Virus record (IMG/VR): IMGVR_UViG_3300009076_001661
Location: 1 to 26,406 of that record
Strand: one strand, 5' to 3'
Source of the DNA: a virus
Length of the DNA stretch: 26,406 nucleotides
Positions 5,334 through 25,965 of the stretch are shown here, piece after piece. The notes below the pieces were generated by a model. It did no database searches and was not told the origin of the DNA. It saw nothing but the letters and a program-made list of their open reading frames with translations. The position numbers and the translations under genes were made by a program. The first letter of the stretch is position 1. Each line of letters begins with the position of its first letter.

Positions 5334-5335
5334 AT

Positions 5336-6535: not shown

Positions 6536-6537
6536 AT

Positions 6538-8063: not shown

Positions 8064-8950
8064 ATTTTAAAATTATTTTCGTGGTAGTAAATACTATAAT
8101 AATCTTTAGCTTGTTTACTACATTCACTATAAAATTCGCTATTATTATTAAGTTCTTTTATTAATTCTTTAGCATGCCCCAAATCACCAACATTAACTGT
8201 GAGTTCAGGGTGACATAGCTCTTGGGTATCTAATCCCTTATAACCTATACAAGGAATACCCAAATAAGCACAATTTAGAGCAAACGTACCAGCAGCATGG
8301 GTTCTCATTAAATGCACTCCAATCTTAAATTCATTAAGTTTATGAATCCATTCTTTCCAGTTCATATATGGAAGTAAAGTCAATAACTGTTCTTCCCCTT
8401 CTTGTTTTCTACCCATTGTTGGTGCTGATACAACATCAAATTGACTGTTTGCTACCATATATGAATCAAAACCTCCATACCAATTTACAAAATTACCCCC
8501 AATAATAACTCCTTTTCTATTAACTATTTTTGTTTCTCCAATAGCTTCTTCAATCATAAGGGATCTCATTACTCTAACATCCTTATGTCCTGTTAATCCC
8601 CTATAGTATATTTTATCGGCTTTATTATGAACAAATATTATATCGGCTGATGTTAAAGCATTAAAGTAATTAATTTGATCATTTAAATTATAATCTTGAA
8701 AATACCAGTGGGGGCCTTCTTGCATTACAGCTACCTTACCACAATATTGCTTTAATCTTTTAAGATCAAATTGGGGGTTATTTTTTGGTATAATAGTAAT
8801 TCCTAAATCATATTTTTTATCTGGAACATTATTAATGTTATAATGGTCGGCATTTAAAGCTACCATCCAGGCAAATTCAGTCCTCATATTATTATGATTA
8901 CTAGGAATTTTACCATTAAAACCCATTTCTGTAAAAAATGCTATAGACAT
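8060..8950 (-). CDS. Probable GT-B glycosyltransferase
   Basis: 296 residues. The C-terminal half contains FALNCAYLGIPCIGYKGLDT followed by ELCHPELTVNVGDLGHAKELIKEL, the nucleotide-sugar-binding pattern of GT-B enzymes (Gly/Ala-rich helix, 'GIPCIG' strand, then the 'elv..gd..~a~~ai~~l' tail). The N-terminal half (YDLGITIIPKNNPQ, KVAVMQEGPHWY, DIIFVHNKADKIYY) looks like the first Rossmann-like domain with a helix-bound acceptor. It is compact for a GT4 enzyme and lacks a clear E-x7-E motif, so a distant family is possible. Overlaps: 4 bases with the epimerase and 10 bases with the deacetylase gene. Confidence 0.6.
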   Translation of the reverse strand: MSIAFFTEMGFNGKIPSNHNNMRTEFAWMVALNADHYNINNVPDKKYDLGITIIPKNNPQFDLKRLKQYCGKVAVMQEGPHWYFQDYNLNDQINYFNALTSADIIFVHNKADKIYYRGLTGHKDVRVMRSLMIEEAIGETKIVNRKGVIIGGNFVNWYGGFDSYMVANSQFDVVSAPTMGRKQEGEEQLLTLLPYMNWKEWIHKLNEFKIGVHLMRTHAAGTFALNCAYLGIPCIGYKGLDTQELCHPELTVNVGDLGHAKELIKELNNNSEFYSECSKQAKDYYSIYYHENNFKI

Positions 8951-9618
8951 TCGTTTAATGTTTTAAATTTGAAATTCATTTTGCATAAATGTTCTAAAGA
9001 TATTCTCATTTGCTGGTAATTATTTTCATTCCAAACATTATCATTCCAATCCCCAGCTATATGAGATTGAAACATTATCATATTGTTATTATGAACTTTA
9101 ATATCTGTTATATCAATACCATCTGCTCCATAAAAGGTTTCACATAACCATTTATTATTACGATTATGTTCATAATGTACTGCCGAATATTTAAAATGTT
9201 TACCTAATTCCTTAATAGCAATAGGATTACCTAACCAACCAGGATTTCTCCACCCTTCTGGTTTATGTCCTACAGCTTCCCATTCTTTAAACATTAAATT
9301 AATTCTGTCCTTAGCTTTTTTTTCTGTATTTAACTCCCAAAATTCACATTCACCAATCCCTTCATTTTCACATTCATGGTAATGCCCATGAGCAGCTAAT
9401 TCAAAATATTTTTTTGATTTTAACCAATTAACCCAATCTTTATGCTTTGATAGTGGAGCTTGTTTGTGATAATTAGAAGGAATAAATAGTGTAAATTTAG
9501 CACCAAATTCTCTATGTAGGTCTTCTAAGTAAGACATCTGAATATCACCTTCAGCCCCCCAACCTTTTAATGGGTTAATATCATCAATTGATATAGTTAT
9601 GTTTAATTTATCCTTCAA
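8941..9618 (-). CDS. NodB-type polysaccharide deacetylase
   Basis: 225 residues. Motif 1 is ISIDDI (D12, D13: general base and metal Asp), then KFTLFIPSNY (41-50). Motif 2 is ELAAHGHYHE with H77 and H81, the metal-binding H-x3-H. Motif 3 is GWRNPGW (R124, P126). The final FQSHIAGDW supplies the distal His expected in motif 5. This is carbohydrate-esterase-family-4-like chemistry: removing acetyl groups from an N-acetylated sugar. No signal peptide is visible, so it acts in the cytoplasm, probably on a lipid- or nucleotide-linked sugar made by the cassette rather than on host peptidoglycan outside the cell. It overlaps both neighbours by about 10 bases. Confidence 0.75.
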   Translation of the reverse strand: MKDKLNITISIDDINPLKGWGAEGDIQMSYLEDLHREFGAKFTLFIPSNYHKQAPLSKHKDWVNWLKSKKYFELAAHGHYHECENEGIGECEFWELNTEKKAKDRINLMFKEWEAVGHKPEGWRNPGWLGNPIAIKELGKHFKYSAVHYEHNRNNKWLCETFYGADGIDITDIKVHNNNMIMFQSHIAGDWNDNVWNENNYQQMRISLEHLCKMNFKFKTLNECL

Positions 9619-10339
9619 TATTATTAAAGTATTGTAAATCTATTAGTTGTGATTTTAAATTAGGGGTTTTAATATTACCTTTTAAACATTTATCTATTAC
9701 AGGTTCATTAACTGGGTTAATATTAATATCATATCGACTATATACTTCTTTTAAGGTTAATAGTAATTTATATTTAGAAACCCGTTCACCTTCTAATATA
9801 GTTTCTATTTGTTGTGTACCCCAATTAGCCATTAAAAAGGTGCAATGTTTAGCCCACGTTAAAGTGGTATTTCCATTCCAATAACATTCTGAATAGCCAT
9901 TTATTGTTCCATTTTGAGATAAAAACCATTCCATTAAACTTGCTTTTGTGTTAAGTTCAGGACCTAAAATAGAAGTTTTAATTATTTTAGTATTTTTACT
10001 TGATGATTTAATCCATTCTGCTGCTATTCTTTTAGAATTACCATAATCATCATTATCTATTTCACAATCAGTACCAGGGTGTATAATTTTACAATCAGCA
10101 TTTTCATCTAACCATTGAGGTAACTCCCAATTAATATCAAATTGGTTTGTTCTTTGATGTATTGCTCCTATACAATTAATAATAAATTCTCCGTTAAATT
10201 CTTTAATAGATTCTTTAAATTTAGGTGAAGGCCACCTTTTATCTATTGTTACAAATTCACTATAAGGATTATTATATTTTAGATACTTTAGTACCATATG
10301 TCCTAACATCCCTTTATGTCCTAATACTAATACTTTCAT
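9608..10339 (-). CDS. RmlD-like sugar-nucleotide reductase (SDR)
   Basis: 243 residues. LVLGHKGMLGHMVLKYL (4-20) is the NAD(P)-binding loop in the GxxGMLG form typical of dTDP-4-dehydrorhamnose reductase and its relatives. INCIGAIHQR (54-63) and the catalytic YGNSK (Y99, K103, in DDYGNSKRIAAEWI) complete the SDR core. The segment KTSILGPEL corresponds to the usual RT..vYG..g strand. It is shorter than RmlD (about 290-300), so the substrate lobe is reduced and the sugar uncertain. Its stop overlaps the deacetylase start and its start overlaps the PseB-like stop (ATGA). Confidence 0.75.
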   Translation of the reverse strand: MKVLVLGHKGMLGHMVLKYLKYNNPYSEFVTIDKRWPSPKFKESIKEFNGEFIINCIGAIHQRTNQFDINWELPQWLDENADCKIIHPGTDCEIDNDDYGNSKRIAAEWIKSSSKNTKIIKTSILGPELNTKASLMEWFLSQNGTINGYSECYWNGNTTLTWAKHCTFLMANWGTQQIETILEGERVSKYKLLLTLKEVYSRYDININPVNEPVIDKCLKGNIKTPNLKSQLIDLQYFNNIEG

Positions 10340-11268
10340 GGTTTAAAATAATTATAGATTTTCAGTATATTTTTTAATTCATCTTTAGACATACATACAA
10401 CATCACTAGTAAATTCACGGCTATCCCATTTTTCCTGTATTTCTTTATAATGCATATAATAAGTGTTATCAGATGAGTTATAATATGTTCTTGGTAGTTC
10501 TTCTTTTGAAATCATCATTTCATGAAGTTTCTCTGATATACGGGGAGTTCCTAATATATACTCTAAATTAAATTCTTCATTATATATTTCAAATAAGTCT
10601 TTTATTTTAAATGATTTTAAATTAGGGATTACATTATATCCTGTAACTTTCAATCCCTGTTCAATTAAATTCATAGCTCCTTCTATATCAATTACAAAAC
10701 GTGTCATTTGTTCTGAATATAAAGTTAATGAGTATTTTTTATTAATTGAATCCCAAATTAATGGTATAATACTACCAGTAGAATTAATAACATTACCGTA
10801 TATCGCTGTAGATAAACGCACATTAGAATTTTCTGCATTCACTATAAATGACTCACCAGCTACAAATTTCATTGCGCCATATAATGTAGTTGCCGCTCTT
10901 GATTTATCTGAAGATATAAAGCATGCTGCTTCAAAATTATTATCTTCTGCTGCTCTTCTAGAATTAATGGCACCATCTACAAGAACTTTAACTGATTCTT
11001 CAACATTTTGATCCACAGCTTCTATTTGTTTTAAAGAAGCGGCAAATATTCCTATATCATGTCCAAAAGCAGAACGGGTTAATAAATCGTAATTACGAAT
11101 ATCTCCTATTATACATTTGATATTAGGAAATTCTTTTTTTAAATAATAATGTTTTGCTTCATCTCTGGAGTAGACAGTAATTTCATTATCATTATAATAA
11201 CGTTTAACTAAGTTTTTACCTAAATATCCTGCTCCACCAGTAATGAATATTTTTTTTCCTTTTATCAT
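10336..11268 (-). CDS. PseB/CapD-like UDP-GlcNAc 4,6-dehydratase (SDR)
   Basis: 310 residues. ITGGAGYLGKNLVKRY (9-24) binds NADP; VYSRDEAKHYY (32-42) and GDIRNYDLL (55-63) match the polysaccharide-biosynthesis SDR family. The catalytic region is SSDKSRAATTLYGAMKFVAGE. D121-K122 and Y130 keep the spacing of the Asp-Lys...Tyr set in PseB/FlaA1, with K134 as the SDR Lys. TRFVIDIEGAMNLIEQGL follows, as in the family. Such enzymes convert UDP-GlcNAc to a 4-keto-6-deoxy sugar, the first step to pseudaminic, bacillosamine-type or fucosamine-type sugars. No aminotransferase is present in the window, so the pathway may rely on the host or end at a deoxy sugar. ATGA overlaps on both sides. Confidence 0.85.
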   Translation of the reverse strand: MIKGKKIFITGGAGYLGKNLVKRYYNDNEITVYSRDEAKHYYLKKEFPNIKCIIGDIRNYDLLTRSAFGHDIGIFAASLKQIEAVDQNVEESVKVLVDGAINSRRAAEDNNFEAACFISSDKSRAATTLYGAMKFVAGESFIVNAENSNVRLSTAIYGNVINSTGSIIPLIWDSINKKYSLTLYSEQMTRFVIDIEGAMNLIEQGLKVTGYNVIPNLKSFKIKDLFEIYNEEFNLEYILGTPRISEKLHEMMISKEELPRTYYNSSDNTYYMHYKEIQEKWDSREFTSDVVCMSKDELKNILKIYNYFKP

Positions 11269-11891
11269 AATGTATTGTAGTAAGCGTTTTGTTTTTCTTG
11301 ACGATCAATTGTTTTAGGGTGATATAAAGATAGTTGCTCAGTTGAAGGGATAGGGGCATATGTTTTAAAACCCTCTAAAACCTCATGTACTTTATTTTTC
11401 CATTTAATTTCAGGTTTATTTTTCCATATACGCCATTGGTAATCAGGATAATTTACCCATCCTTTATCATTAACATTCCAACCCCATTTTTTAATATGTT
11501 CATCAGTTATTCCTTCAACTGTATTTATTCTAGGAACTAAATATACTTCGTTATCAGGATTATTACCTAATATCTCTGGGAGGTAACCTAATAATACTTG
11601 ATGAGGAATTTCATCAGCATCTATTTGGAATATGTAATCTCCTGAACAATATTCTGTTAACTGGTTTTTCCAGTCAGCAAAATGACCATTAAAATCAAAT
11701 CCTCTCCATGTTTGTACATTAGGCAATTTATTAAATTTTAATAAATAACTTAATACTTCAGGATCACCATTTTTACTATCATACAAAATAACTATTTCGT
11801 CCTTTATTCTTTTATTTTCTAACAGAAAGGGAATAAGTTTCTGTATTTCAAGAAACTCATTACATACTGTTATCGCATAACTTATCTTCAT
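11265..11891 (-). CDS. Family 2 (GT-A) glycosyltransferase
   Basis: 208 residues. YAITVCNEFLEIQKLI (5-20), IVILYDSKNG, and FQIDADEIPHQ with the DAD metal motif at 91-93 identify a GT-A fold. The C-terminal RIWKNKPEIKWKNKVHEVLEG resembles WaaE/KdtX-type members, which add sugars to LPS core. It is at the short end of the family but complete, ending just past the HEVLEG/YHP segment. Two bases separate it from the upstream 147-residue gene. A copy of the recurrent motif (CTTTCGTATATTG at 11911-11923) lies 20 bases before its ATG, within the preceding coding region. Confidence 0.8.
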   Translation of the reverse strand: MKISYAITVCNEFLEIQKLIPFLLENKRIKDEIVILYDSKNGDPEVLSYLLKFNKLPNVQTWRGFDFNGHFADWKNQLTEYCSGDYIFQIDADEIPHQVLLGYLPEILGNNPDNEVYLVPRINTVEGITDEHIKKWGWNVNDKGWVNYPDYQWRIWKNKPEIKWKNKVHEVLEGFKTYAPIPSTEQLSLYHPKTIDRQEKQNAYYNTL

Positions 11892-11893
11892 AT

Positions 11894-12337
11894 CTATTCT
11901 GGTAATAACCCAATATACGAAAGAGCATCCATAAAATCACGTTCTTTAAAATATTTTATAGTAGTCATATCGGCTCTATATTTTTCACCTTTATATTTTT
12001 CTTGTTCTTCTTTTGGTATTTCAATAGCTTTTACTGCACCCCAACTCCAATTTTCTATATCAGCCCCTGAGGCAAATACCATTCCATTTTCTTTAACATT
12101 AACAATATTGGGTAACCATATTAATTTAGTTTCAGGGTCAACCCATGCTAAATCCTTATAGATTTCAGGTAAAACACTTACTTGCTCTTCATAAAATTCA
12201 GAACCTTCTAACATTAAAGTATTAGTATGAAACCCACATGATAAACTATAATAATTAGTAATATCTTTATTTATTTCCGTTTTATAACATAAATCACCAC
12301 CGGATTTAGGGCAATCTATTATTTTATCAAAATTCAT
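11894..12337 (-). CDS. Hypothetical protein of the sugar cassette
   Basis: 147 residues. It begins with a short Cys-containing region (C9, C17 and C34 in IDCPKSGGDLCY and SLSCGFHTNTL), possibly a zinc site together with a His. A middle domain with strand-like segments follows (KLIWLPNIVNV, GMVFASGADIENWSWGAVKAIEI). It closes with a helical end (FKERDFMDALSYIGLLPE). I do not recognise the family and see no glycosyltransferase or SDR motif. Its position between two glycosyltransferase genes, 1-2 bases from each, suggests a role in the same process or in binding their product. A virion protein remains possible. Confidence 0.7.
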   Translation of the reverse strand: MNFDKIIDCPKSGGDLCYKTEINKDITNYYSLSCGFHTNTLMLEGSEFYEEQVSVLPEIYKDLAWVDPETKLIWLPNIVNVKENGMVFASGADIENWSWGAVKAIEIPKEEQEKYKGEKYRADMTTIKYFKERDFMDALSYIGLLPE

Positions 12338-12338
12338 A

Positions 12339-13637
12339 TTAATTTAATTTTTTCATTTTAGGTAAATTTAATTTAGGAAGAGATAGTTCTACTTGTTTTG
12401 GTAAACCAGATGTTGCCTTATCAAGACTAATATCAACTAATTTATACATTTCTTCCCAACTAAAGTTAGTTTTAACATAATGTTTTTGTTGTTTTCCTTT
12501 AACACTAAATGATTTATATTTTTTAAATACGTCTTTAAAAGAAGATCTTAAATGACTACCACTAACTTGAAACCATTGACTTTCTTGTATTAACCAATTA
12601 TTTGCGGCACTAGGGTGAACATTTTCTAAGGATCCAGGGAGTAAAGTAACATATTGAGGATTTAAAAAATCTAAATGACCTGACCACCCAGAGGCAATTA
12701 TTGGTTTACCAATAGCTGAAAATTCTAGTAGAGGTCGACCAAATCCTTCACCTTTAGTAGTAGTTACCATTCCCTTAACTTTAGGATTATTATACAACTC
12801 ATTCATTTCATAGTCACTAAACTCCCCATTTATTAGATATATATTAGGTAAATCTTTAGAATTGATTGTTTTTTTAATATTCCTAATTCTATCCAAGATT
12901 TCTTCTCTACTCATATAAGAGGAAGTACCAACAGAGGCTTTTAGAATTAATGCTGGTTTTTGTTTTTGATTTTTAAAGGTATCAAAAAATTCTTTAACTA
13001 AAACCCCTACATTTTTTCTATCATGACCATGTTCGCCATTCATCCAATGTCCTACAAATAAATAACAAAATGATTCTTTTATATCTGATAAATCGAATGT
13101 TTTTAATTCATTAGTTTTTAATGGTTTGTATATATCTAAATTAACTCCTTCAAATATGACTTCTATAGGTTTATTTAATACTATACTTTGACCCGTACTT
13201 TTATTTGTTCTCTTATCTATTTTATCAAAACGAGAAGATTCAAATACCTTTTTAGCATGATTTGATGAAACCCAATTCATATCCATTCTATTTAAACCTT
13301 CAACCCACTCCCCTTTACAGGCTGTTGATTCAATTCCTGCAGTACATCCTATATTAAATTTTCCTATAGGTTGAAATTCATTAGGTATAGTTATTTGCAT
13401 CCAAATATCAGGTTTTTCTACTTGGTTCCAATCTGGTTTTGCTAAATGTTGTATCAAAAAAGCCCATTCAGGGTTTTCTTTACAAAAACCCCATGAAGTT
13501 TCCCCCCATTTTTGGGATAATAATTCAACTTTATATTTATTAGTTTTAATAATAGCTTTTACTATATCTCTACTACGTGCTCCATAACCCGAATAGGTAT
13601 CAAATGGGCAACTTATTACAAAACGTGGCTTATTCAT
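12339..13637 (-). CDS. Family 4-like (GT-B) glycosyltransferase
   Basis: 432 residues. The N-terminal domain opens with FVISCPFDTYSGYGARSRDI, where the Gly-rich loop lies near the acceptor site. The C-terminal domain begins at FCYLFVGHWMNGEHGHDRKN. GEGFGRPLLEFSAIGKPIIASGWSGH contains the retaining GT4 E-x7-E motif, followed by the 'GxP.ia..wsG..d' nucleotide-sugar pocket. The tail SFSVKGKQQKHYVKTNFSWEEMYKLV is the usual closing helix. Length is normal for GT4. It shares one base with the other GT4 gene upstream (TAATG), so the two are very likely translated as a pair acting in sequence on one glycan. Confidence 0.85.
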   Translation of the reverse strand: MNKPRFVISCPFDTYSGYGARSRDIVKAIIKTNKYKVELLSQKWGETSWGFCKENPEWAFLIQHLAKPDWNQVEKPDIWMQITIPNEFQPIGKFNIGCTAGIESTACKGEWVEGLNRMDMNWVSSNHAKKVFESSRFDKIDKRTNKSTGQSIVLNKPIEVIFEGVNLDIYKPLKTNELKTFDLSDIKESFCYLFVGHWMNGEHGHDRKNVGVLVKEFFDTFKNQKQKPALILKASVGTSSYMSREEILDRIRNIKKTINSKDLPNIYLINGEFSDYEMNELYNNPKVKGMVTTTKGEGFGRPLLEFSAIGKPIIASGWSGHLDFLNPQYVTLLPGSLENVHPSAANNWLIQESQWFQVSGSHLRSSFKDVFKKYKSFSVKGKQQKHYVKTNFSWEEMYKLVDISLDKATSGLPKQVELSLPKLNLPKMKKLN

Positions 13638-15076
13638 TAATATATAATTTTATGGTTTAAAAATTTACCTTTATACTCTGTGGCATTAATTACTTCATAT
13701 TTTTCTCTAGGTTCCCAAATTTCAAATAATTCATCAAAAGCATTAATTACTTTTTCTCCTTGATGTTCAGAAGTAAACCCGGCTTCATCACTTATAGCCC
13801 ATTCTCTACCCTTCAATCCTCTTTGTTTTAGATTTTCTCTACCTAATTCATAACACTCAATAATTCTTTTAGTAGCATCTTCAAAATTACATCTATCATC
13901 ATAAATGTAAGGAGTAGGAGGAGAACCCTGAATTGATCTAGAGGTTGGATAAACTGGAAAAGCCCACTCACCATGATTTTTGTATGTACCTCTATGGTTA
14001 GAAGGAACATCAGCATCGGGTTCAAACCATTTTCCTTTATCATCAGTAAATCTCATTTGATCTTGCATTCCACCTGTAGTATTAGCTATAATTGGTGTAC
14101 CTGCTAATATTGCTTCTGTAATTGTTAACCCCCAACCTTCATTGGATGTTAATAATATTTGTACATCAGCTATATTATATAGATAGTTTAATTGAGTTTC
14201 TGTGAATTTACGATCTAAAATTATATAACTATTTTCATAATCTTCACCTAATATATAATCACATACTTTGTGTAAATTAGTACCAGCATCTGTAATTTTT
14301 TCAGATTTTATTACAAAACGACATTTATCTGCCTTTTCTTTAGGTAAAGAATCTAAAAACAATCTATAAGCCATTATAGTATCAGGGATTTGCTTTCTCC
14401 TTATATTTCTTGAATTAAAATATAATACAAAATCTACTTGTTGATTAGGAAATAATTGTTTTCTAAACCCCATTAGATCAGGATTTGTATCTTCTACAGG
14501 GGTATATATATTTTGGTTTTTACCGTGTGGTAAATACTTGAATATTGTATTTTTTTCTGATCCTTTTAATACTAATTTATTGATATTAACTGTTTGTTTT
14601 GAAATACCCATTAATAAATCACAAGCTTCATAATAAGGTTTATTATACATTGGAGCAGGATAATCATCCCAAATATTTAGGTAAGTAATAGGAATTTTCT
14701 TTCTAATTTCTTGTTCCATATTCCAAATATGCATAAAATATCTTGGATCAGTAAACAACATTACAGCATCAGGGTTTTCACGTGCTATAATTTCTCTAAC
14801 AGCGGTTGAATCTCCATACCCATCTACTGGGTATAATATAGTACTTGCGTCTGTTAGACCTACAGCTTCATTAGTTGACTTAGATAAATCTAAAATTTTT
14901 CCTTTATCTGGGTGTTTTATTGATCCAGCTATTTGTACCCAATTAAAATGTTGGGAAGTATGGAGCACTATTTCTTTTGCTATAGTTGCTACACCGGAAT
15001 GGACTCTAATATCATCACATATTAGAAGTATTTTTTTTCTTTTATCCTTAGGAAGATACTTAAAGTCTTTATTCAT
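13637..15076 (-). CDS. Family 4-like (GT-B) glycosyltransferase
   Basis: 479 residues. ILLICDDIRVHSGVATIAKE is the first GT-B strand and Gly loop. FVLYFNSRNIRRKQIPDTIMAYRL is the start of the C-terminal Rossmann domain with Arg/Lys diphosphate contacts. NEGWGLTITEAILAGTPIIANTTGGMQDQM carries the E-x7-E motif and the 'GTPiIa...GG' loop. A region between about 355 and 400 (FEPDADVPSNHRGTYKNHGEW, then SIQGSPPTPYIYDD) is an insertion not typical of GT4 enzymes and may shape the acceptor site. It is the first large enzyme after the ribbon-helix-helix gene, which it overlaps by 8 bases, and so opens the sugar cassette. Confidence 0.85.
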   Translation of the reverse strand: MNKDFKYLPKDKRKKILLICDDIRVHSGVATIAKEIVLHTSQHFNWVQIAGSIKHPDKGKILDLSKSTNEAVGLTDASTILYPVDGYGDSTAVREIIARENPDAVMLFTDPRYFMHIWNMEQEIRKKIPITYLNIWDDYPAPMYNKPYYEACDLLMGISKQTVNINKLVLKGSEKNTIFKYLPHGKNQNIYTPVEDTNPDLMGFRKQLFPNQQVDFVLYFNSRNIRRKQIPDTIMAYRLFLDSLPKEKADKCRFVIKSEKITDAGTNLHKVCDYILGEDYENSYIILDRKFTETQLNYLYNIADVQILLTSNEGWGLTITEAILAGTPIIANTTGGMQDQMRFTDDKGKWFEPDADVPSNHRGTYKNHGEWAFPVYPTSRSIQGSPPTPYIYDDRCNFEDATKRIIECYELGRENLKQRGLKGREWAISDEAGFTSEHQGEKVINAFDELFEIWEPREKYEVINATEYKGKFLNHKIIY

Positions 15077-16772: not shown

Positions 16773-16992
16773 TGATTTGTGCTTTAGGATCAAAATATTG
16801 CCCCAATGCATTCAATTTATCATCTGCATCTACTAGCATGATAAGTGCTTCTTCGGCATTTTTATAAAAATCTTCTGTGGAATGGTCTCCAATTCCTACT
16901 GCTTTATTACCTAATAATTCAAGTGATAATAATGCTTTAGCTTTATCTGCTTCAGCAGATGTTTTTAACATATTGTATAATTCTTTTGTCAT
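16765..16992 (-). CDS. Small hypothetical helical protein
   Basis: 75 residues, MTKELYNMLKTSAEADKAKALLSLELL..., predicted to be mostly helical: Ala/Leu/Glu/Lys rich, with DFYKNAEEALIMLVDADDKLNALGQYF forming a helical pair. There is no metal site, membrane segment or nucleotide motif. Its ATG overlaps the stop of the gp62-like gene by 4 bases (ATGA) and its stop overlaps the Nmad1-like start by 8 bases. Family not recognised. Being locked between replication genes suggests an accessory role in DNA metabolism, but that is context only. Confidence 0.65.
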   Translation of the reverse strand: MTKELYNMLKTSAEADKAKALLSLELLGNKAVGIGDHSTEDFYKNAEEALIMLVDADDKLNALGQYFDPKAQING

Positions 16993-17402
16993 TTTAATAA
17001 AGGTTTTATTTCTTTTTTATTTAATCCTCTGTTGGTTAATATACGACTAATTTCTGTGGTAGCCAATATATTTATATATTCTTTTGCTTCTTTACTTGAA
17101 CATTGAAAATAATCTTTAATATGGTCTGTTAAATCTTTATTAGGTTGTTTTACCTTAGATTTAACATATTTACTCCATTTATTATTTTTAGGGATAAACT
17201 CTCTATATATATTATAAATCATTCTTTTTTCCTGTGGAGGAAAATCTTGAACATAATTTACAATTTCTAGATAATCAGGATTCATAGATAAAAACCTATG
17301 TATCATATAACTATTCCAAACCTCCCAGTCTTTATCTGTAAAAGATTCAACTGGGGGTTTGGTGTTATTAATTGCTTTTAACCAATCAAAGATGTTTTTC
17401 AT
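16989..17402 (-). CDS. 62: Clamp-loader small subunit, T4 gp62-like
   Basis: 137 residues. FDWLKAINNTKPPVE opens like gp62 of cyanophage and other T4-type phages. DWEVWNSYMIHRFLSMNPDYLEIVNYVQD, then 'IPKNNKWSKYVK', then a C-terminal helical domain (CSSKEAKEYINILATTEI...LNKKEIKPLLK), follow the layout of that family. It is the non-ATPase subunit that, with four gp44 copies, opens and loads the gp45 clamp. T4 gp62 is 187 residues, so this is a short version. Position two genes downstream of the gp44-like ATPase supports the call. Sequence similarity in this family is low, so this rests on pattern and context. It shares one base with the upstream gene. Confidence 0.65.
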   Translation of the reverse strand: MKNIFDWLKAINNTKPPVESFTDKDWEVWNSYMIHRFLSMNPDYLEIVNYVQDFPPQEKRMIYNIYREFIPKNNKWSKYVKSKVKQPNKDLTDHIKDYFQCSSKEAKEYINILATTEISRILTNRGLNKKEIKPLLK

Positions 17403-17646: not shown

Positions 17647-18567
17647 TTATTTATATTTTATTAAAGTTTGAATTAATGACATTATATTTATTTCCTTGTC
17701 AATACGGAAATTTGCTTTATATTGGTGTTCGTTTATTGCTAGTACTGCTGTACCTTCTTTATCTTTATAATATTCAGATGAACGATCATAAAGTGCTCTA
17801 AATAATTCATCGAAATCATCTACATTAGCATCTGCTATTATTTGGCGTATATTATTAAATGATGATACTTTATTACCTTTAGATAATTCAGTAATTACTT
17901 TATCTATATAATTAGATGATACTAATATTGAATGGTCTAATTTTAATGTATTATCTTGTGTAGATAACTGTATAGTATTAATACATTTACGTAAATCGGG
18001 ATAATATTGATTAACTAAAGGTACTAAATCATTTATATCATGTTCAATAGACTCTTGTTGTAGTATCCAATTTAAATGTTTAGCAACATCTTTTTTAGTT
18101 GGAGGTACAATTTTAAGTACTTGACATCTAGATTGTAAAGGATCAATGATACGCTCTACAAAATTACAAGTCATAATAAAACGCGTCGTACGAGAGAAAG
18201 TTTCGATGATATTACGGAGTGAAGCTTGCGCTTGGATAGTAAGAAAATCAGCTTCATCCAAAATGACCACTTTAAGTGGTTTAAAAGAAGCAACGCTTGC
18301 AAATCCTTGCACTTTATCACGAATCGTTTCAATACCTCTTTCATCCGAGGCGTTAATATAAAGATGATCGCAATCAAGATTTTGAACACAAAGTTTTGCC
18401 AAAGTAGTTTTTCCTGTACCAGCTGGTCCATAAAATATTAAGTTTTGAATATCATTTTGTTCTAAATATTTAGAAATTGATTTTTTAATATTTTCATTCC
18501 CAACATAAGTTTCTAACTTAGATGGTCTATATTTTTCTACTAATAAACTATTCTCCGTATTCACCAT
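17647..18567 (-). CDS. 44: Clamp-loader ATPase large subunit, T4 gp44-like
   Basis: 306 residues, close to T4 gp44 (319). EKYRPSKLETYVGN (11-24) is the clamp-loader box II/III start, GPAGTGKT (47-54) Walker A, VILDEAD (101-107) Walker B, TCN (133-135) sensor 1, and QSRCQV (145-150) the SRC arginine-finger motif; a helical collar domain follows. It hydrolyses ATP to place the gp45 clamp on primer-template DNA, in a 4:1 complex with gp62. It overlaps the upstream 89-residue gene by 20 bases. In T4 the order is 45-44-62-regA-43; here transcription runs 43-45-...-44-62, a rearranged layout. Confidence 0.93.
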   Translation of the reverse strand: MVNTENSLLVEKYRPSKLETYVGNENIKKSISKYLEQNDIQNLIFYGPAGTGKTTLAKLCVQNLDCDHLYINASDERGIETIRDKVQGFASVASFKPLKVVILDEADFLTIQAQASLRNIIETFSRTTRFIMTCNFVERIIDPLQSRCQVLKIVPPTKKDVAKHLNWILQQESIEHDINDLVPLVNQYYPDLRKCINTIQLSTQDNTLKLDHSILVSSNYIDKVITELSKGNKVSSFNNIRQIIADANVDDFDELFRALYDRSSEYYKDKEGTAVLAINEHQYKANFRIDKEINIMSLIQTLIKYK

Positions 18568-19021: not shown

Positions 19022-20638
19022 TTACATCATACCCATCATTGGGTCCATTTGTTGTTGTTTATTATCATCACTGGGTTCATCAACTACAGTACATTCTGTT
19101 AATAAAACAGTACCTGCTACTGATGCTGCATTTTGTAGTGCTGTTCTAGCTACTTTAGTTGGGTCGATAATACCTGCTGTTTTCATATTAACAGTTTGTT
19201 CTGTTTTAATATCATACCCAGCCCAAAAATCATCTCCGGAATTAACTAAATTATCAGCTAAAATTTGCCCTTTAACTTCATCAAATCCAGCATTAACAAG
19301 AATTTGGTTAAATGGTTTAGCACATGCTGATATTACAATTTGTGCGCCTGTTGTTTTAGCTTCTAAACCAGAGGAAGCATATAGTAATGCAGTTCCACCT
19401 CCAGGTACTATTCCTTCCTCAATAGCTGCTTTTGTTGCATGTAAAGCATCATCAACTCTATCTTTCTTTTCCCTCATTTCAGTTTCAGTGTTTCCACCTA
19501 CATGAATGATAGCTACTCCTCCTGTGAATTTCGCCAACCTTTCTTGAAGTTTTTCGATTTCGAACGGTGTTGTTGCTTTATCGATTTGTTGTTGTAATTC
19601 TTCAATACGTGCTTCAATTTGTTCAATTCCTCCTTTTCCATCTACAATTGTTGTTTGTTCTTTTTCTACAGTTACAGTACGAGCTTCACCAAACCATTCC
19701 CATGAAAATTTATCAAGCTTCATTCCTTTTTGTTTATCAAAAACAATTCCACCTGTTGTAACTGCTATATCTTCTAAAGCTAATTTACGTCTATCTCCAA
19801 AATCCGGGGCTTTAACCGCACATACACTTAATGTTCCTCTCATTTTATTAACTATCAAAGTAGCTAAAGCTTCATTATCTATATCTTCAGCAATAATTAA
19901 TAAAGATCTTGCCTGAGCTCCTACTGCTTCTAAAATGGGCAATAATTCCTTTACCTGTGTTAATTTTTGATCAGCAATTAGAATAAGTGGGTTATCTAAG
20001 GTTGATGTCATACTGTTGTTATCTGTAACAAAATATGGAGATTTAAAACCTCTATCAAATTGCAATCCTTCAACAGTTTCAAGATAAGTTTCACCCGTAC
20101 GAGATTCTTCAATATGAACTACTCCTTCCATTCCTACTTTATCAATAGCAGTTGCTATTAATTTTCCAGTTTCTGGGTCATTATTTGCAGAAATGGATGC
20201 GATTTGTTCTAATTGTTCTTCACCTGAGATTTCTTCAGATATTTTATTTTTTAAATTAGAAATTACTAATTTTACTGTAGCGTCAATATCTCTTTTAATT
20301 TGTACCGCATTTTCACTATTATTTAAAGCATTTAATCCTGCTTTTACCATTTCACGTGCTAGTAAAGTAGAAGTTGTAGTACCATCTCCTGCTTTTTCTG
20401 CGGTTTGAATTGCTGCTTGCTTTACTAATTGTACTCCTAATTCTTGTTCTGGTTCTGATAATGTAATTGATTTTGCAACTGTAACACCATCTTTTGTTGA
20501 TTGTGGTGAGCCATTATTTGCAATAACTACATTTCTTCCATTTGGTCCTAAAGTTGATACTACAGCATCAGCTAATATATCTATACCTTTTACTAAATTT
20601 TCTCTAGCTGTTTTTCCTAATGTAACTTGTTTACTCAT
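19022..20638 (-). CDS. groL: GroEL-type chaperonin (Hsp60)
   Basis: 538 residues, full length (E. coli GroEL 548). STLGPNGRNVVI (28-39), TKDGVTVAK (48-56) and AGDGTTT (83-89, with catalytic-site D85) form the equatorial ATP site. FDRGFKSPYF is the intermediate/apical hinge motif (usually GYxSPYF). NKMRGTLSVCAVKAPDFGDRRK and VDDALHATKAAIEEGIVPGGG (D near 395, ATP hydrolysis) are intact. The C-terminus is a short Met/Gly tail (MDPMMGMM), like bacterial GGM tails. It forms 14-mers that fold proteins with a GroES lid. It overlaps groES by 8 bases and lies in the replisome block. Several DnaA-style conserved positions are unusual (DFGDRRK for GFGDRRK; FSWEWFG), consistent with long residence in a phage lineage. 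Confidence 0.97.
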   Translation of the reverse strand: MSKQVTLGKTARENLVKGIDILADAVVSTLGPNGRNVVIANNGSPQSTKDGVTVAKSITLSEPEQELGVQLVKQAAIQTAEKAGDGTTTSTLLAREMVKAGLNALNNSENAVQIKRDIDATVKLVISNLKNKISEEISGEEQLEQIASISANNDPETGKLIATAIDKVGMEGVVHIEESRTGETYLETVEGLQFDRGFKSPYFVTDNNSMTSTLDNPLILIADQKLTQVKELLPILEAVGAQARSLLIIAEDIDNEALATLIVNKMRGTLSVCAVKAPDFGDRRKLALEDIAVTTGGIVFDKQKGMKLDKFSWEWFGEARTVTVEKEQTTIVDGKGGIEQIEARIEELQQQIDKATTPFEIEKLQERLAKFTGGVAIIHVGGNTETEMREKKDRVDDALHATKAAIEEGIVPGGGTALLYASSGLEAKTTGAQIVISACAKPFNQILVNAGFDEVKGQILADNLVNSGDDFWAGYDIKTEQTVNMKTAGIIDPTKVARTALQNAASVAGTVLLTECTVVDEPSDDNKQQQMDPMMGMM

Positions 20639-20996
20639 TTGATAAATCTGTTAAGTGGTTAATTTCTTCTTTTGTGACTTGTGTTTGTGCTAATACTTCT
20701 TCTATAGGAGTATTTACTTTAGCTAAAATTTGGTTTTCAGGACCTACATAATACTCATCCCCATTATAAGGTAATTTTGTAAATCCTTGGGTAGGTAAGA
20801 CAACAATATCTCCTACTTTACTAATAGTAGGAACAAATTCCCCCATTAATGTTTTTTGACCCGGGCCAACGGATACAACTTTACCTGTTTGGTTTTTTTC
20901 ACTTCCCAAATCAGGTACAATAATTGAACCATAAGTACTTTCTTCGGCTTCAATTGGTTTTACAATGACTGCATTAAATAACGCTTCTAATTCCAT
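20631..20996 (-). CDS. groS: GroES-type co-chaperonin
   Basis: 121 residues. NAVIVKPIEAEESTYGSIIVPDLGSEKNQTGKVVSVGPG holds the first strand, the mobile loop that docks on GroEL (YGSIIVPD) and the 'GxVvavGpG' strand. VGDIVVLPTQGFTKLPYNGDEYYV gives the roof-proximal strand and the conserved 'GDxV...' motif. Bacterial GroES is about 97 residues; the extra 22-25 residues at the C-terminus (EEVLAQTQVTKEEINHLTDL) are phage-like and could adjust the cage, as in T4 gp31. It starts inside the end of the upstream 105-residue gene (23-base overlap) and runs 8 bases into groEL. Confidence 0.9.
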   Translation of the reverse strand: MELEALFNAVIVKPIEAEESTYGSIIVPDLGSEKNQTGKVVSVGPGQKTLMGEFVPTISKVGDIVVLPTQGFTKLPYNGDEYYVGPENQILAKVNTPIEEVLAQTQVTKEEINHLTDLSNE

Positions 20997-21291
20997 CTGT
21001 ATAATTTTTAATTTGATTACTAATTGATTTATAATTGTTAATATATTCTTCTAAATTATCAAAATTTTCTACATCTGCCTTTAAATTAGCTATTTTTTGT
21101 AAAGCTTGTTCAAAATTAGCATAGTAATATAATGATTTTTCATAGGTTTTTGCCTTACCTTTAGCCCTGAAATGGGAAGCATCAGATGTCACATTTTGTT
21201 TTACAGTATAGCTGTATTCATCTTTAGTAATAAAGAAGGGTTCAAGCAAAGGGTCGGTAATAGTCTGAATAGACTTTCTTTTTGTTGTCAT
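20974..21291 (-). CDS. Small hypothetical protein, first gene of the groES-groEL unit
   Basis: 105 residues. TDPLLEPFFITKDEYSYTVKQNV, then KSLYYYANFEQALQKIANLK, resembles widespread small phage proteins in which a short beta sheet is followed by the 'yy..leqaL..i' helix (DUF5405-like in pattern, low confidence). The C-terminal half is helical. It stands directly below the best copy of the recurrent promoter-like motif (21310-21323) and overlaps groES by 23 bases. It is therefore probably transcribed and perhaps translated with the chaperonin genes. Function unknown. Confidence 0.65.
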   Translation of the reverse strand: MTTKRKSIQTITDPLLEPFFITKDEYSYTVKQNVTSDASHFRAKGKAKTYEKSLYYYANFEQALQKIANLKADVENFDNLEEYINNYKSISNQIKNYTDGIRSVI

Positions 21292-21309
21292 ATAACTTAT
21301 TTATTTAGA

Positions 21310-21323
21310 CGTGAATATACGAA
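21310..21323 (-). promoter_or_regulatory. Recurrent promoter-like motif before the chaperonin unit
   Basis: The minus strand reads TTCGTATATTCACG, identical to the copy at 2579-2592, and ends 18 bases before the ATG at 21291. It sits next to one arm of the inverted repeat flanking hsp20 and would drive the 105-residue gene, groES and groEL. Confidence 0.5.
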
Positions 21324-21350
21324 TAATATTGCGCTAGGACACGCGTTTTT
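21323..21350. repeat. Inverted-repeat arm downstream of hsp20
   Basis: Minus strand AACGCGTGTCCTAGC followed by GCAATATTAT. It aligns, with small gaps, to the plus strand at 21831-21858 (AACGCGCCCTAGCTGCAATTTTAT). This GC-rich, CTAG-containing block stands out from its AT-rich surroundings. Confidence 0.45.
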
Positions 21351-21360
21351 GGTAAAACTT

Positions 21361-21780
21361 TTATTTTATTTTAATTGTTTTTGCTTTTTTAGATTCCGCA
21401 ATTGGAATAAATAGGTGAAGCAAACCATCTTTCATTTCTGCTTCTAATTTCTCTAGTTCGAATTTAGCTGCTACTTTATAACCTAAGTTAAAAGATCGTT
21501 TAGCTAATCCTTTATAGATGTAGCCACTATAATCAAATTCTTCTTCATTAGGTTTATCATAGATAATCTTTAAAAGATCTCCATCAATTTCTAGTTGAAT
21601 ATCTTTTTTAGTTAGACCAGTACAAGCAACTTCAAAATGAAGTCCTTCATCGTCATAAAAAATATCTAGTGGGTGGGGTTGTTTGTTTTCAAACGTTGTT
21701 GGTTGAAAAACTCCGTCTGCCTTAAATAGGTTACGGAATAGTAAGTCGAACTTTGATTGTTCGTTGAATAATGTACTCAT
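21361..21780 (-). CDS. Hsp20/alpha-crystallin small heat-shock protein
   Basis: 139 residues, typical length. The N-terminal arm (MSTLFNEQSKFDLLFRNLF) is hydrophobic and variable, as in the family. The alpha-crystallin domain runs from about 36 to 135: HFEVACTGLTKKDIQLEIDGDLLKI, then RSFNLGYKVAAKFELEKLEAEMKDGLLHLFIPI with the conserved 'a.~~nGlL.i.iP' signature, ending KKAKTIKIK. Such proteins hold unfolding clients in oligomers without ATP. Hsp20 genes are a well-known feature of cyanophage T4-type phages. Here it sits between the sliding clamp and the groES/groEL unit, in its own 97-base-leader transcription context, flanked on both sides by the arms of an inverted repeat. Confidence 0.92.
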   Translation of the reverse strand: MSTLFNEQSKFDLLFRNLFKADGVFQPTTFENKQPHPLDIFYDDEGLHFEVACTGLTKKDIQLEIDGDLLKIIYDKPNEEEFDYSGYIYKGLAKRSFNLGYKVAAKFELEKLEAEMKDGLLHLFIPIAESKKAKTIKIK

Positions 21781-21877: not shown

Positions 21878-22600
21878 TTATTCATTTCTAGCGATGAAAT
21901 ATTCACTTTCTGTTTCTGATGTTTTAAAATTTGCTTTTAACATTCCTACTTCTGATATTTTTAGTGTACCACTTTCCATATCTTTATTAGCATTTAATAT
22001 ATCTTTAAATATATCTGAGTCGAATGGGATTTGAATATCTCCTTTAGTAATATTACCTCTAAGTTGATAAGTAATTTTATTTGAAAAGCCAGTATTATCA
22101 CCAAATATAATTTCACATATATTCTCACCATCAAAATCTGTTGTTGTAGTAATTAACATATTGTTCACATCAGCTAAAGCACTTTTTGCTTTAATTAAAT
22201 GTGTAATATCTTCACTAGTTAAATCAATCTGTATTTCAAATTCTTCAGGATCCTCATAATAAGTATTTTTACCTAAAATTAGAATATCAGCTAATGAATA
22301 TGTTAAATCAAAATTTAAATCAGCTATATTCATTTTAGTATAAACTGCTTTAATTTTTTCAAGTGAAATACTTAATTCACCGTTAGTAATAGAAAGTAAT
22401 TTACTAAGTTTATGAGTATCAAATACACCTAATTCTGCATCTTCAAGGTTAAAGTTATTATGTACTACTTTACATACTCTACCATTATCTCCAGCATAAA
22501 CCGTTAGTTGATTATCTTTAATACGCCATTTTACTTGATTATTTAATCCGTTTAAATAATATTTTGAAATAACTGATGTTAGTGTTGCTTTATTTACCAT
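21878..22600 (-). CDS. 45: DNA polymerase sliding clamp, T4 gp45-like
   Basis: 240 residues (T4 gp45 is 228). It opens MVNKATLTSVISKYYLNGLNNQVKW, then DNQLTVYAGDNGRVCKVVHNNF. The two-domain beta-rich layout includes LGVFDTHKLSKLLSI, ISLEKIKAVYTKM, and the repeat-like second half (IQIPFDSDIFKDILNANKDM...LKANFKTSETESEYFIAR). This matches phage gp45, a trimeric ring that tethers the polymerase; in T4 it also links to late transcription with gp33/gp55. Its place directly below the polymerase C-terminal half supports the call. A promoter-like motif TTTCATATATTAC lies 5-17 bases before the ATG. Confidence 0.88.
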   Translation of the reverse strand: MVNKATLTSVISKYYLNGLNNQVKWRIKDNQLTVYAGDNGRVCKVVHNNFNLEDAELGVFDTHKLSKLLSITNGELSISLEKIKAVYTKMNIADLNFDLTYSLADILILGKNTYYEDPEEFEIQIDLTSEDITHLIKAKSALADVNNMLITTTTDFDGENICEIIFGDNTGFSNKITYQLRGNITKGDIQIPFDSDIFKDILNANKDMESGTLKISEVGMLKANFKTSETESEYFIARNE

Positions 22601-22623: not shown

Positions 22624-23559
22624 TTATATCTCAAAGGATGCTAATGCATTTGTGTAAGGGTTTAAATCTAATGACCATTGGAGATCCGAGAAAAATCCTT
22701 CTAATTTATTTAATAATATTGAATCGAATACTTTTTGTCTGTCAGCATAAGCATTTAAAAAGTCATTAATTTTTTCTGGTACATCAAAGTCCTGAAACGC
22801 TAATGCTTCTATTTTATAAGGATTATCTTTACAATAAATCCATTTTACTTTATCTGCTTGGGTAATTAAATTATGTTTTTTATCTAATTGCCATAATCTT
22901 AACAGATCATTATAACGAATTGTAGCACGTACAGGTGCAGGGGCTCCTTTAAGTATTTCTGTAAACATTTCTCCTGCTCTAGTATTTTTACCTGAATACT
23001 TTTCTAGTTTTTTAATTGCTGAAGGGTTACCTAATTTAGTAAGTGGTATTGTACCATCTAGTATTTGTTTTTTAAATACTTTAATTTGATCTAAAATACT
23101 AGCTTTTTCTTCACCCTTTAATACTTGTTGTAAAATATCATTAAAAAATGATCCTAAAATAGGTGGAAAATTTGCTTTCATAAATTCTAAACCCTTAATA
23201 TCCAAAGATTCTTTAGCAATTCCTTCTTGTTTAGTGATCCATTGAGCATAACGACGAGTTGCTCTAAAATAAGCTGAACGAATAACACACTCAGTTTTCA
23301 TTTCAAGTCTATGTTCTGTTACATTGAAACATTCTTTAGCTAATCTATCATAATCCTCATTAATTACGTCCTGATACTTCATTGCTACTTTTTCTAAAAT
23401 ATCATCTTTTTCTTCTGCTGATAGTTCTTCGAAATTAGGATGTAATTTGAGAAGTAAGGGTTCAGCATTAAAGTAATTAGAGTCTGTATCTACATAAGCA
23501 CAATAATTCTCATCCCCTTCATCACAAATCCACCAAGGTGTTTCTTCTAAATGTTTCAT
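22624..23559 (-). CDS. 43B: Family-B DNA polymerase, C-terminal half (motif C and thumb), gp43B
   Basis: 311 residues. The N-terminus gives AYVDTDSNYF (21-30): motif C with D24-T25-D26, the second metal-binding Asp pair of the palm. The rest is palm remainder and thumb: CVIRSAYFRATRRYAQWITK, and DIKGLEFMKANFPPILGSFF, matching the 'KG~e~~r~~~p' motif region of T4-type polymerases. A C-terminal tail then matches the part that contacts the clamp in T4 (final LNPYTNALASFEI). By itself it lacks exonuclease, motif A and motif B, which lie on the other half (24214-25965). The two halves sum to 894 residues, near T4 gp43's 898. It must pair with the other half to work. It starts one base into the stop of the DUF6165 gene. 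Confidence 0.93.
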   Translation of the reverse strand: MKHLEETPWWICDEGDENYCAYVDTDSNYFNAEPLLLKLHPNFEELSAEEKDDILEKVAMKYQDVINEDYDRLAKECFNVTEHRLEMKTECVIRSAYFRATRRYAQWITKQEGIAKESLDIKGLEFMKANFPPILGSFFNDILQQVLKGEEKASILDQIKVFKKQILDGTIPLTKLGNPSAIKKLEKYSGKNTRAGEMFTEILKGAPAPVRATIRYNDLLRLWQLDKKHNLITQADKVKWIYCKDNPYKIEALAFQDFDVPEKINDFLNAYADRQKVFDSILLNKLEGFFSDLQWSLDLNPYTNALASFEI

Positions 23560-23942
23560 TAATATTCTTTATACGATTTTTCCTCTACTAAACCTGATGA
23601 TGTCATTAAATTAATAATTTTTTTAACTTCACATCTTTTATCATTGGTAATATAAACAGAACGAGCCAACTCTACAAACTCCTTATCAAATCTCTTTTCA
23701 CGTTCACAATCTCTAATCCAATCTTCTATATTCCAAAGTTCACCATTAATTTTTGCTAATTCAAGATAATGATTTTGTAATTGACCATCATACTTTTCAA
23801 ATAATTCTACAACTAAAGGGTTTAGTGTGTCAAATTCTTTTTGAATGTTTACTAACTTTTCTTCATCCTCAATTTTAAGTAATTTTAACTCTAAAATTGA
23901 AATTTTGTCTAATAATTCTCCATTTGATACTTCTACTAACAT
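23559..23942 (-). CDS. DUF6165-like protein inserted between polymerase halves
   Basis: 127 residues. The run VSNGELLDKISILELKLLKI, then NGELWNIEDWIRDCE, FVELARSVYITNDKRCEVKK and a final EEKSYKEY is the pattern I recall for DUF6165: 'SnGElvDKltILeiK', 'LW.iED.iR..E', 'eLAR.VY.tND.Ra.iK', 'EEKSY.~Y'. The family is all-helical, of unknown function, found in bacteria and phages, often near glycan genes. It has no nuclease motif, so the intervening gene is not a homing endonuclease, unlike some split T4-type polymerases. It lies 11 bases after the 87-residue gene and overlaps 43B by one base. Confidence 0.65.
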   Translation of the reverse strand: MLVEVSNGELLDKISILELKLLKIEDEEKLVNIQKEFDTLNPLVVELFEKYDGQLQNHYLELAKINGELWNIEDWIRDCEREKRFDKEFVELARSVYITNDKRCEVKKIINLMTSSGLVEEKSYKEY

Positions 23943-23953
23943 ATATTTATTTT

Positions 23954-24217
23954 TTAAAATGTTCTTTCACCTGGTAAGGGTGGTACTGTTATTGGTTTGT
24001 TTCCATTAGAATCTAAATCACTTCTTTCGATTAGTTCTACTTTATATTTTATTCCTGCTACTTTAAAAGTTCCTCCTTGTTTAAGCATTTTTCTAAAAAA
24101 GTTTTCTTGGATTTCACTCCATTCTTTACTTCTAGTTATAAGCTCATCTTTAGAAATGGGTTCTCCATTTACCGTGATTACTTGGTTTTTCCTAATAGAT
24201 TGTTTTTTTAATGTCAT
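23954..24217 (-). CDS. Small hypothetical protein between polymerase halves
   Basis: 87 residues. It has a basic start (MTLKKQSIRKNQVI), then 'VNGEPISKDEL', a helix (WSEIQENFFRKMLKQG), a strand pair (TFKVAGIKYKVELIERSDL) and a Pro-rich end (ITVPPLPGERTF). No family recognised and no nuclease motif. Its ATG overlaps the 43A stop by 4 bases (ATGA). The polymerase N-terminal half and this protein are therefore translationally coupled, which argues for an established gene rather than a recent insertion. Confidence 0.65.
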   Translation of the reverse strand: MTLKKQSIRKNQVITVNGEPISKDELITRSKEWSEIQENFFRKMLKQGGTFKVAGIKYKVELIERSDLDSNGNKPITVPPLPGERTF

Positions 24218-25965
24218 ATTTCTAATTTTATTTCTTCACGCATAACTTTATTCATATGGCGGTTTGCACATAAAGCCGATTCTTGTATTATTCTGTGTCC
24301 ACTTAAGGTGATTGCTTCACTTAAGGTTTGAAAGTTCATACCATATCTAAATGAAGGTAATGCTGTAGCCCCATATAAACTGTTAAGTAGAATTTTCATT
24401 GTGTATTGCATTAAATAGTTATATTCACCTAATTCCTTATCTCCTGCCTTATAAGCCTTTTTCATGCGGTTTTTATAAACAACTCGTTCTTCAAACCATT
24501 TCTTTAGAATAGTAGATAAAACTGATTCTTTATCTGTTCTAAACATTGAACCATTAGCTGCTACTGCCAAGTTATTTTGTTCAATCATAGCTATTAATCT
24601 ACCAACATTTACACTAGTTTGTTGTCGTTTTTTATTTTCAACTAGTAATTCTTCTTCAGGATCACGTTCTTTTAAATCGTTAAGACCCAGTCTATTATTA
24701 CGGTCATCAGCATCTACAATACGCCCCACAAATGTTTCCTTACCTATGTTTATAGACATTATTATAGATGGATATAGCGAAGTTAAATCTTCATCAAACA
24801 TATACTTATATAACCCTGCTTTAGGGCAAAAAAGATACCCTCCTGCATAACTATCTTTCTTTTGGGGGAATGGTTCTTTTGGGGGTGGTACTATGTCTTG
24901 GGAGAGTAAATAGGCTGAAATAGCACCATCTTGGGATATACTATTAGCATATACTTCACTATAATTATGTTTTCCCTTATGAGATAAATTTTTAGTTAAA
25001 GCTAAATATTGTAATTTTTCATCTAATTTTTGTAAGATTTCAACATCAACAAAGTTATACTGAATGAATTTATGGATATCTGTTTCAAATAATTGATCTA
25101 GGTTTCCTTCATATTCAACTTTATTCATACCTACATATTTGGCTCCAATTGCATCTAATTTCCAACTAGGTTCATCTTTCCAACTATATTTTTTATGTAA
25201 ACGAATGTAATCTAAAGATTCAATACCTACAATATCTACATATTGGTTTTGTTTAAAGAAGTATTTGTTGTTTTTCTTAGAAACTACTTTACCAATAGGA
25301 GATAAATGATCAGCCCAATCTTTACCTATGGTTCTACACATTCTGTAATATAAATAAGGTATATCAAAATAATCTGAATTGTATCCTACTAAAATATCAG
25401 GATCCATTTCTCTTATTGCTTCAACAAACTTAGCTAATAATTCATTTTCTGTAGTACAAGGGATAATTTCTTTATTTTTATTTTTGCCTGTTTTAGTGTG
25501 TGCTAATTGACTTTTTTTATCTAAAATAAGAATAGACCAATAGTCTTTTTGTTTGTCCCACCAAGCAATAGAAGTAATGGGCATAGGAGCATCTTCAATA
25601 TATTCTTCAGTTAATGCTCCTCCTATTTCACACTCAATATCAAAAAAAACTTCTCTATGTCCCTTAGAAGGAACATCATTTACACCATAACGCTCAACTA
25701 AAAACTTTTGGTGGGGTTTCATATCATGAAAATGTAAATTAGGAGTATTTTTAGCACTATAATCAGGGTTTTTAGAATAAAACCACTTAGATATAGGTTT
25801 TAGGAATTCACCATTTAACCCCTTATGTGTATGTTCTTCTTCAGTACACTCCTGGTATACTACATTTCTATAGGGTACTATTTGATGACCACCATCTTCT
25901 TCCCATAGATGCATTTCAAAATAATTATCTCCTAATTTTTTACCTTGATAACACTTTTTATACAT
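24214..25965 (-). CDS. 43A: Family-B DNA polymerase, N-terminal half (exonuclease, motifs A and B), gp43A
   Basis: 583 residues from ATG 25965; a TTG 30 bases upstream is possible but the ATG is the simpler start. The 3'-5' exonuclease is intact: Exo I FFDIE (D109, E111), Exo II GYNSDYFDIP (N196, D201), Exo III YNFVD (Y303, D307). Palm motif A is DLTSLYPSII (D393); motif B is KILLNSLYGA (K524, N528, Y531). The frame ends at LSGHRIIQESALCANRHMNKV followed by REEIKLEI, just before motif C, which is on the separate gene at 22624-23559. It therefore cannot polymerise alone. A strong hairpin and a promoter-like motif lie upstream, and an ATGA overlap links it to the next gene. Confidence 0.95.
   Translation of the reverse strand: MYKKCYQGKKLGDNYFEMHLWEEDGGHQIVPYRNVVYQECTEEEHTHKGLNGEFLKPISKWFYSKNPDYSAKNTPNLHFHDMKPHQKFLVERYGVNDVPSKGHREVFFDIECEIGGALTEEYIEDAPMPITSIAWWDKQKDYWSILILDKKSQLAHTKTGKNKNKEIIPCTTENELLAKFVEAIREMDPDILVGYNSDYFDIPYLYYRMCRTIGKDWADHLSPIGKVVSKKNNKYFFKQNQYVDIVGIESLDYIRLHKKYSWKDEPSWKLDAIGAKYVGMNKVEYEGNLDQLFETDIHKFIQYNFVDVEILQKLDEKLQYLALTKNLSHKGKHNYSEVYANSISQDGAISAYLLSQDIVPPPKEPFPQKKDSYAGGYLFCPKAGLYKYMFDEDLTSLYPSIIMSINIGKETFVGRIVDADDRNNRLGLNDLKERDPEEELLVENKKRQQTSVNVGRLIAMIEQNNLAVAANGSMFRTDKESVLSTILKKWFEERVVYKNRMKKAYKAGDKELGEYNYLMQYTMKILLNSLYGATALPSFRYGMNFQTLSEAITLSGHRIIQESALCANRHMNKVMREEIKLEI

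Follow-up and report, generated by a model that had tools for sequence, protein, structure and literature searches.

The analysed stretch of viral DNA (26,406 nucleotides; hereafter, the window) carries a gp43-like family-B DNA polymerase (PolB) encoded by two separate genes on the minus strand. The first gene (24214–25965) encodes a protein of 583 aa, designated here as the N-half, with the 3'-5' exonuclease, motif A, the fingers, and motif B. The second gene (22624–23559) encodes the C-half, a protein of 311 aa with motif C, the rest of the palm, and the thumb. Motif A (DLTSLYPS, 24766–24789, minus strand) contains the catalytic Asp393 of the N-half, and motif B (KILLNSLYG, 24370–24396, minus strand) spans Lys524 to Gly532 of the same protein. 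Motif C (YVDTDS, 23479–23496, minus strand) corresponds to Tyr22 to Ser27 of the C-half. Two further genes, also on the minus strand, separate the halves. The first of them, S (23954–24217), encodes a conserved orphan protein of 87 aa for which family and fold searches gave no match; the second, 11 bp further on, encodes a protein of 127 aa assigned by Pfam to DUF6165 (23559–23942) and is variable cargo between the halves. The stop codon of the N-half gene overlaps the start codon of S by 4 bases (ATGA, 24214–24217, minus strand), and the DUF6165 gene overlaps the C-half gene by 1 base (TAATG, 23559, minus strand).

The lengths of the halves sum to 894 aa (898 aa in T4 gp43). The matches to phrog_262 were complementary, positions 25–569 of 856 for the N-half and 565–842 for the C-half, and the core was complete. 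Both halves also matched the sequence of RB69 gp43, the N-half with an E value of 2e-40 and the C-half, at residues 608–885, with an E value of 2e-4. An AF2 model of the C-half, for which one row from the annotated phage collection was left out of the input, had a pLDDT of 83 and was matched by Foldseek to the RB69 and T4 structures (E 7e-12, query TM about 0.7–0.77). The exonuclease domain, motifs A, B, and C, and the catalytic residues of a gp43-like PolB are all present, spread over two proteins. A Pfam search with the C-half at 1e-3 gave zero matches, so this half is easily missed during annotation.

Alignment to T4 gp43 placed the break at approximately residues 603–608, in the loop preceding the motif C strand. 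The N-half was collinear with T4 gp43 to approximately residue 603, and the C-half resumed at approximately residue 608, ten residues ahead of DTDS (618); NSLYG lies at 561. The distance between motifs B and C was 56–57 residues in 120 of 122 fused relatives (57 in T4) vs. a sum of 79 (56 + 23) in split pairs of the window type and 71 (48 + 23) in those of the L375 type. By this spacing, the new ends of both halves carry about 20 extra residues compared to the fused enzymes, plausibly as added interface. A first-pass annotation of the window had proposed a family-B polymerase broken between motifs B and C in this loop, with the exonuclease and motifs A and B on one gene and motif C and the thumb on the other, all catalytic residues across the pair, a sum of 894 residues, and overlaps of 4 and 1 bases. 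Our analysis agrees with this description, and the lengths and overlaps are exact. In four contigs (L024, L035, L058, and L059), the N-half had a tail of approximately 28 aa ending in QPRPMW, followed by 3–4 kb of cargo.

The polymerase genes of the window are located in a replication cluster on the minus strand. The large (gp44-like, 17647–18567) and small (gp62-like, 16989–17402) subunits of the clamp loader were identified by PHROG, and the probable sliding clamp of 240 aa (21878–22600) was recognized by position and length only, its PHROG and Pfam searches being without a match. Phage-encoded GroEL, GroES, and Hsp20 (19022–21780) are located beside the replication genes, and the gene order in contig L536 is identical.

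The first-pass annotation considered the split to be a stable arrangement and not a sequencing error, and suggested a metagenomic search for the same break point. Scanning of IMG/VR with the C-half yielded 308 relatives, of which 80 were kept; among these, the upstream half was always a separate ORF wherever it was visible. With further scans, the split at the same break was found in 179 distinct junctions from IMG/VR and MAG contigs. The usual single-polypeptide form of a gp43-like PolB is replaced by two ORFs in all of them, and this recurrence rules out a sequencing error as the cause of the split. The catalytic motifs were kept in nearly all split pairs. Motif A varied from DLTSLYPS to DLVSLYPC in one sub-clade and to DYTSLYPS in another (L237, L243, L236, and L250), and in two contigs (L253 and L260) the C-half itself was found in two ORFs, owing to a sequencing error or a pseudogene. 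Median dN/dS values, calculated from pairs with dS up to 1.2, were 0.195 for the N-half, 0.139 for the C-half, and 0.41 for S, which indicates purifying selection. The stable arrangement is thereby supported: the two-gene replicase is real, fixed, and old.

The split PolB is carried by a large clade of T4-like phages that are uncultured and mostly marine. The window itself had zero structural genes; seven of the clade's long contigs carried a gp23-type major capsid gene (PF07068). Exactly one N-half and one C-half were found in eight contigs of 45–119 kb and in six of 82–164 kb. No second PolB was present in these long contigs as recovered (45–164 kb), and no PolA match was obtained in six contigs of 113–164 kb. 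The phage group has a gene set in common with Far-T4 clade 1 (PMC4360716), including queuosine-type genes, a heat-shock protein, and GTP cyclohydrolase near the polymerase in L536, and this gene set is a lead toward a relationship with that clade. The MAGs into which split contigs L375, L378, and L377 were binned are Flavobacteriales/Flavobacteriaceae (two) and Pelagibacter (one); as a hint of the host, this binning is weak and conflicting.

The content of the junction was variable. S was located between the halves in 116 of the 179 junctions, and in 54 the halves abutted without S, mostly with an ATGA (−4) overlap (41/54) or a −1 overlap (8/54). The gap ranged from the ATGA overlap to 4 kb, with the stop and start codons kept throughout. 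Across 100 loci with S, the halves were separated by another 133 ORFs in total, which fell into 19 clusters. The most common products were DUF6165 proteins (58), cytidylyltransferase-like proteins (20), and mannose-6-phosphate-isomerase-type cupins (18); DegT aminotransferase, GNAT, formyltransferase, epimerase, glycosyltransferase, and FkbM methyltransferase were encoded in few or single cases. The window has a large glycan-type cluster at 4605–15076 with UDP-glucose dehydrogenase, epimerases, glycosyltransferases, a methyltransferase, and DUF2334, i.e., the same kinds of genes, so the junction cargo resembles genes which these phages already carry. Neither the window nor the other 18 cargo clusters searched gave a match to a homing endonuclease; ten of these 18 were without any Pfam match and could hide one. 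An Rfam search at the junction gave no match, introns included.

S belongs to the phage group. Searches of Pfam, PHROGs, PDB sequences, and fold libraries revealed no relatives, which ruled out a homing endonuclease or a known fold, and the structure model reached a pLDDT of only 71. We initially considered S to accompany the split always, which proved wrong: the scans had favoured close relatives, and one scan had used S itself. S was not found in contig G002 (113 kb), where the two halves share an ATGA overlap, or in six records with a fused polymerase, and in contigs of 158–164 kb it was located approximately 7 kb upstream of the abutting halves. In L536, the S homologue (3258–3482, 74 aa), approximately 7 kb upstream of the polymerase, directly preceded the queuosine-type genes.

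In family-B polymerases, the aspartates of motifs A and C are both needed for polymerisation. Since the N-half supplies the motif A aspartate and the C-half the motif C aspartates, polymerisation should need both proteins. The replicase of these phages is very probably an obligate two-subunit family-B polymerase made by coupled translation, as judged from the gene sequences. The N-half and C-half would fold independently and come together across the palm, and the two-metal site would exist only in the heterodimer, while exonuclease activity might persist in the N-half by itself. The ATGA and TAATG overlaps could allow termination-reinitiation and thereby matched amounts of the halves, with coupling running either directly from the N-half to the C-half or along the N-half, S, cargo, and C-half. 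The split would be an old state of the phage clade, and S and the glycan-type genes may have entered or left the junction. The association, activity, coupling, and order of these events are what we infer.

According to the phylogenetic reconstruction, the split rows formed one clade with 100/100 support, distinct from Microcystis phage Mel-JY01, T4, and other fused PolBs. Two contigs, L376 (3797–6463) and L379 (3324–5990), encode a fused PolB of 889 aa, in which the distance between motifs B and C is 73 residues and the loop is 16 residues longer. These fused enzymes branched with the split L387 inside the split clade (97/90), and on either side of this fork there are split pairs with S between the two genes. 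The long loop could be explained either by re-fusion or by loop growth before two fissions. It is quite possible, although we do not favour it, that L376 and L379 retain the state before the split, with the loop already enlarged, and that fission occurred twice. Their distance of 73 about matches the split sum of 71, the tree with fewer rows placed L376 outside the split clade until L379 and L387 were added, and a single split clade without L376/L379 was not rejected by the AU test (p 0.0725). One fission followed by re-fusion agrees better with the grouping with L387 and with S on both sides of the fork. Motif B of L376 and L379 is unusual (NSLCM), so L376 may be a diverged enzyme. A broader reading, which we put forward tentatively and regard as rather doubtful, is that the junction serves as a docking site used repeatedly by S and surface-glycan-type genes, which enter and leave between the two genes of an essential replicase. 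The polymerase would meanwhile remain split, and re-fusion in at least one lineage (L376/L379) would have left a scar loop of 16 residues.

For the two-subunit replicase itself, the conservation of S and its position between the halves in most junctions could point to an obligate third subunit bridging the halves. This is very improbable, since S is absent or located elsewhere in some contigs, including those with abutting halves described above, and is therefore neither an obligate linker nor required by the split. It is still less probable that the split gene is decaying or inactive and that another enzyme replicates the phage. The activity of the split enzyme is predicted from sequence, and an unrelated polymerase might act instead; nevertheless, the strong purifying selection, the conserved motifs, the long contigs without a second PolB or PolA, and the position of the split genes in the clamp and clamp-loader cluster all argue against decay. 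Least probable of all is that the halves are joined once expressed, through a split intein or through RNA splicing over the gap: other phage PolBs have inteins or split inteins close to this position (L084, L122, and phage MIJ3; PMC6892783), but here intein motifs are missing at the ends (the N-half stops at most about 25 residues past the motif B helix, and only 23 residues precede DTD in the C-half), the junction is without an Rfam match, and the stop and start codons persist from the widest gap down to the ATGA overlap.

The two-subunit polymerase appears to be a natural replicase with the catalytic aspartate motifs A and C on different proteins, fixed across a large phage clade, and the split is not tied to an intein, a matched intron, or a recognised endonuclease. 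The abutting, insert-bearing, and fused longer-loop states open gene fission, coupling, and possible re-fusion in an essential enzyme to direct tests.

We found no description of a split at this break point in the open-licence literature. Two precedents named in the first-pass annotation are indeed known. In Methanothermobacter thermautotrophicus, PolB consists of two polypeptides (PMC7776575); it is an archaeal cellular enzyme, likened to the phage enzyme by its two-polypeptide form only. In Aeromonas phage 25 (and 44RR), the T4-type gp43 is likewise encoded by two genes, 43A and 43B, in the replication cluster, and in phage 25 these two products co-purify and are active as a polymerase (PMC2988022). 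However, the phage 25 break falls within the fingers, after motif A and before motif B (43A ends at approximately T4 residues 505–510), about 95 residues earlier than in the window; a homing endonuclease gene is located between the parts and an intron in 43B, whereas a recognised endonuclease and an Rfam-matched intron are absent here. PHROGs 2062 and 1918, by their lengths and match ranges only, look like the Aeromonas type. In the T4-related Rhodothermus phage RM378, the polymerase part is encoded by a gene of its own; its product, p092 (522 aa), starts just upstream of motif A, and another ORF annotated as DNA polymerase, p024 (313 aa), is 57 kb away.

Other divided phage polymerases are associated with inteins. 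In Pseudomonas phage MIJ3, PolB is encoded by two ORFs with an ORF between them, and intein ends suggest protein trans-splicing (PMC6892783). In L122 (7001–11081), the PolB break is at motif C, where the N and C ends are intein-like and a free-standing ORF separates them, unlike the window, which is without intein ends. PolB of jumbo phage LR756508 (L084, 913–8849) carries intein-like inserts at both motif B and motif C, and its ORF is interrupted in the loop that is also broken in the window. Several ORFs, one of them cytidine deaminase-like, are located between its PolB parts. Its C-part matched L085 at 44% and the window's side of the alignment at 30%, grouping with fused relatives, so the LR756508 break looks independent. 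The closest PolB in the phage collection was that of Mel-JY01 (34% for the N-half and 31% for the C-half), which is a single chain of 848 aa; the gene order in this phage, PolB, a gene for a protein of 250 aa, gp44, and gp62, is the same as in the window.
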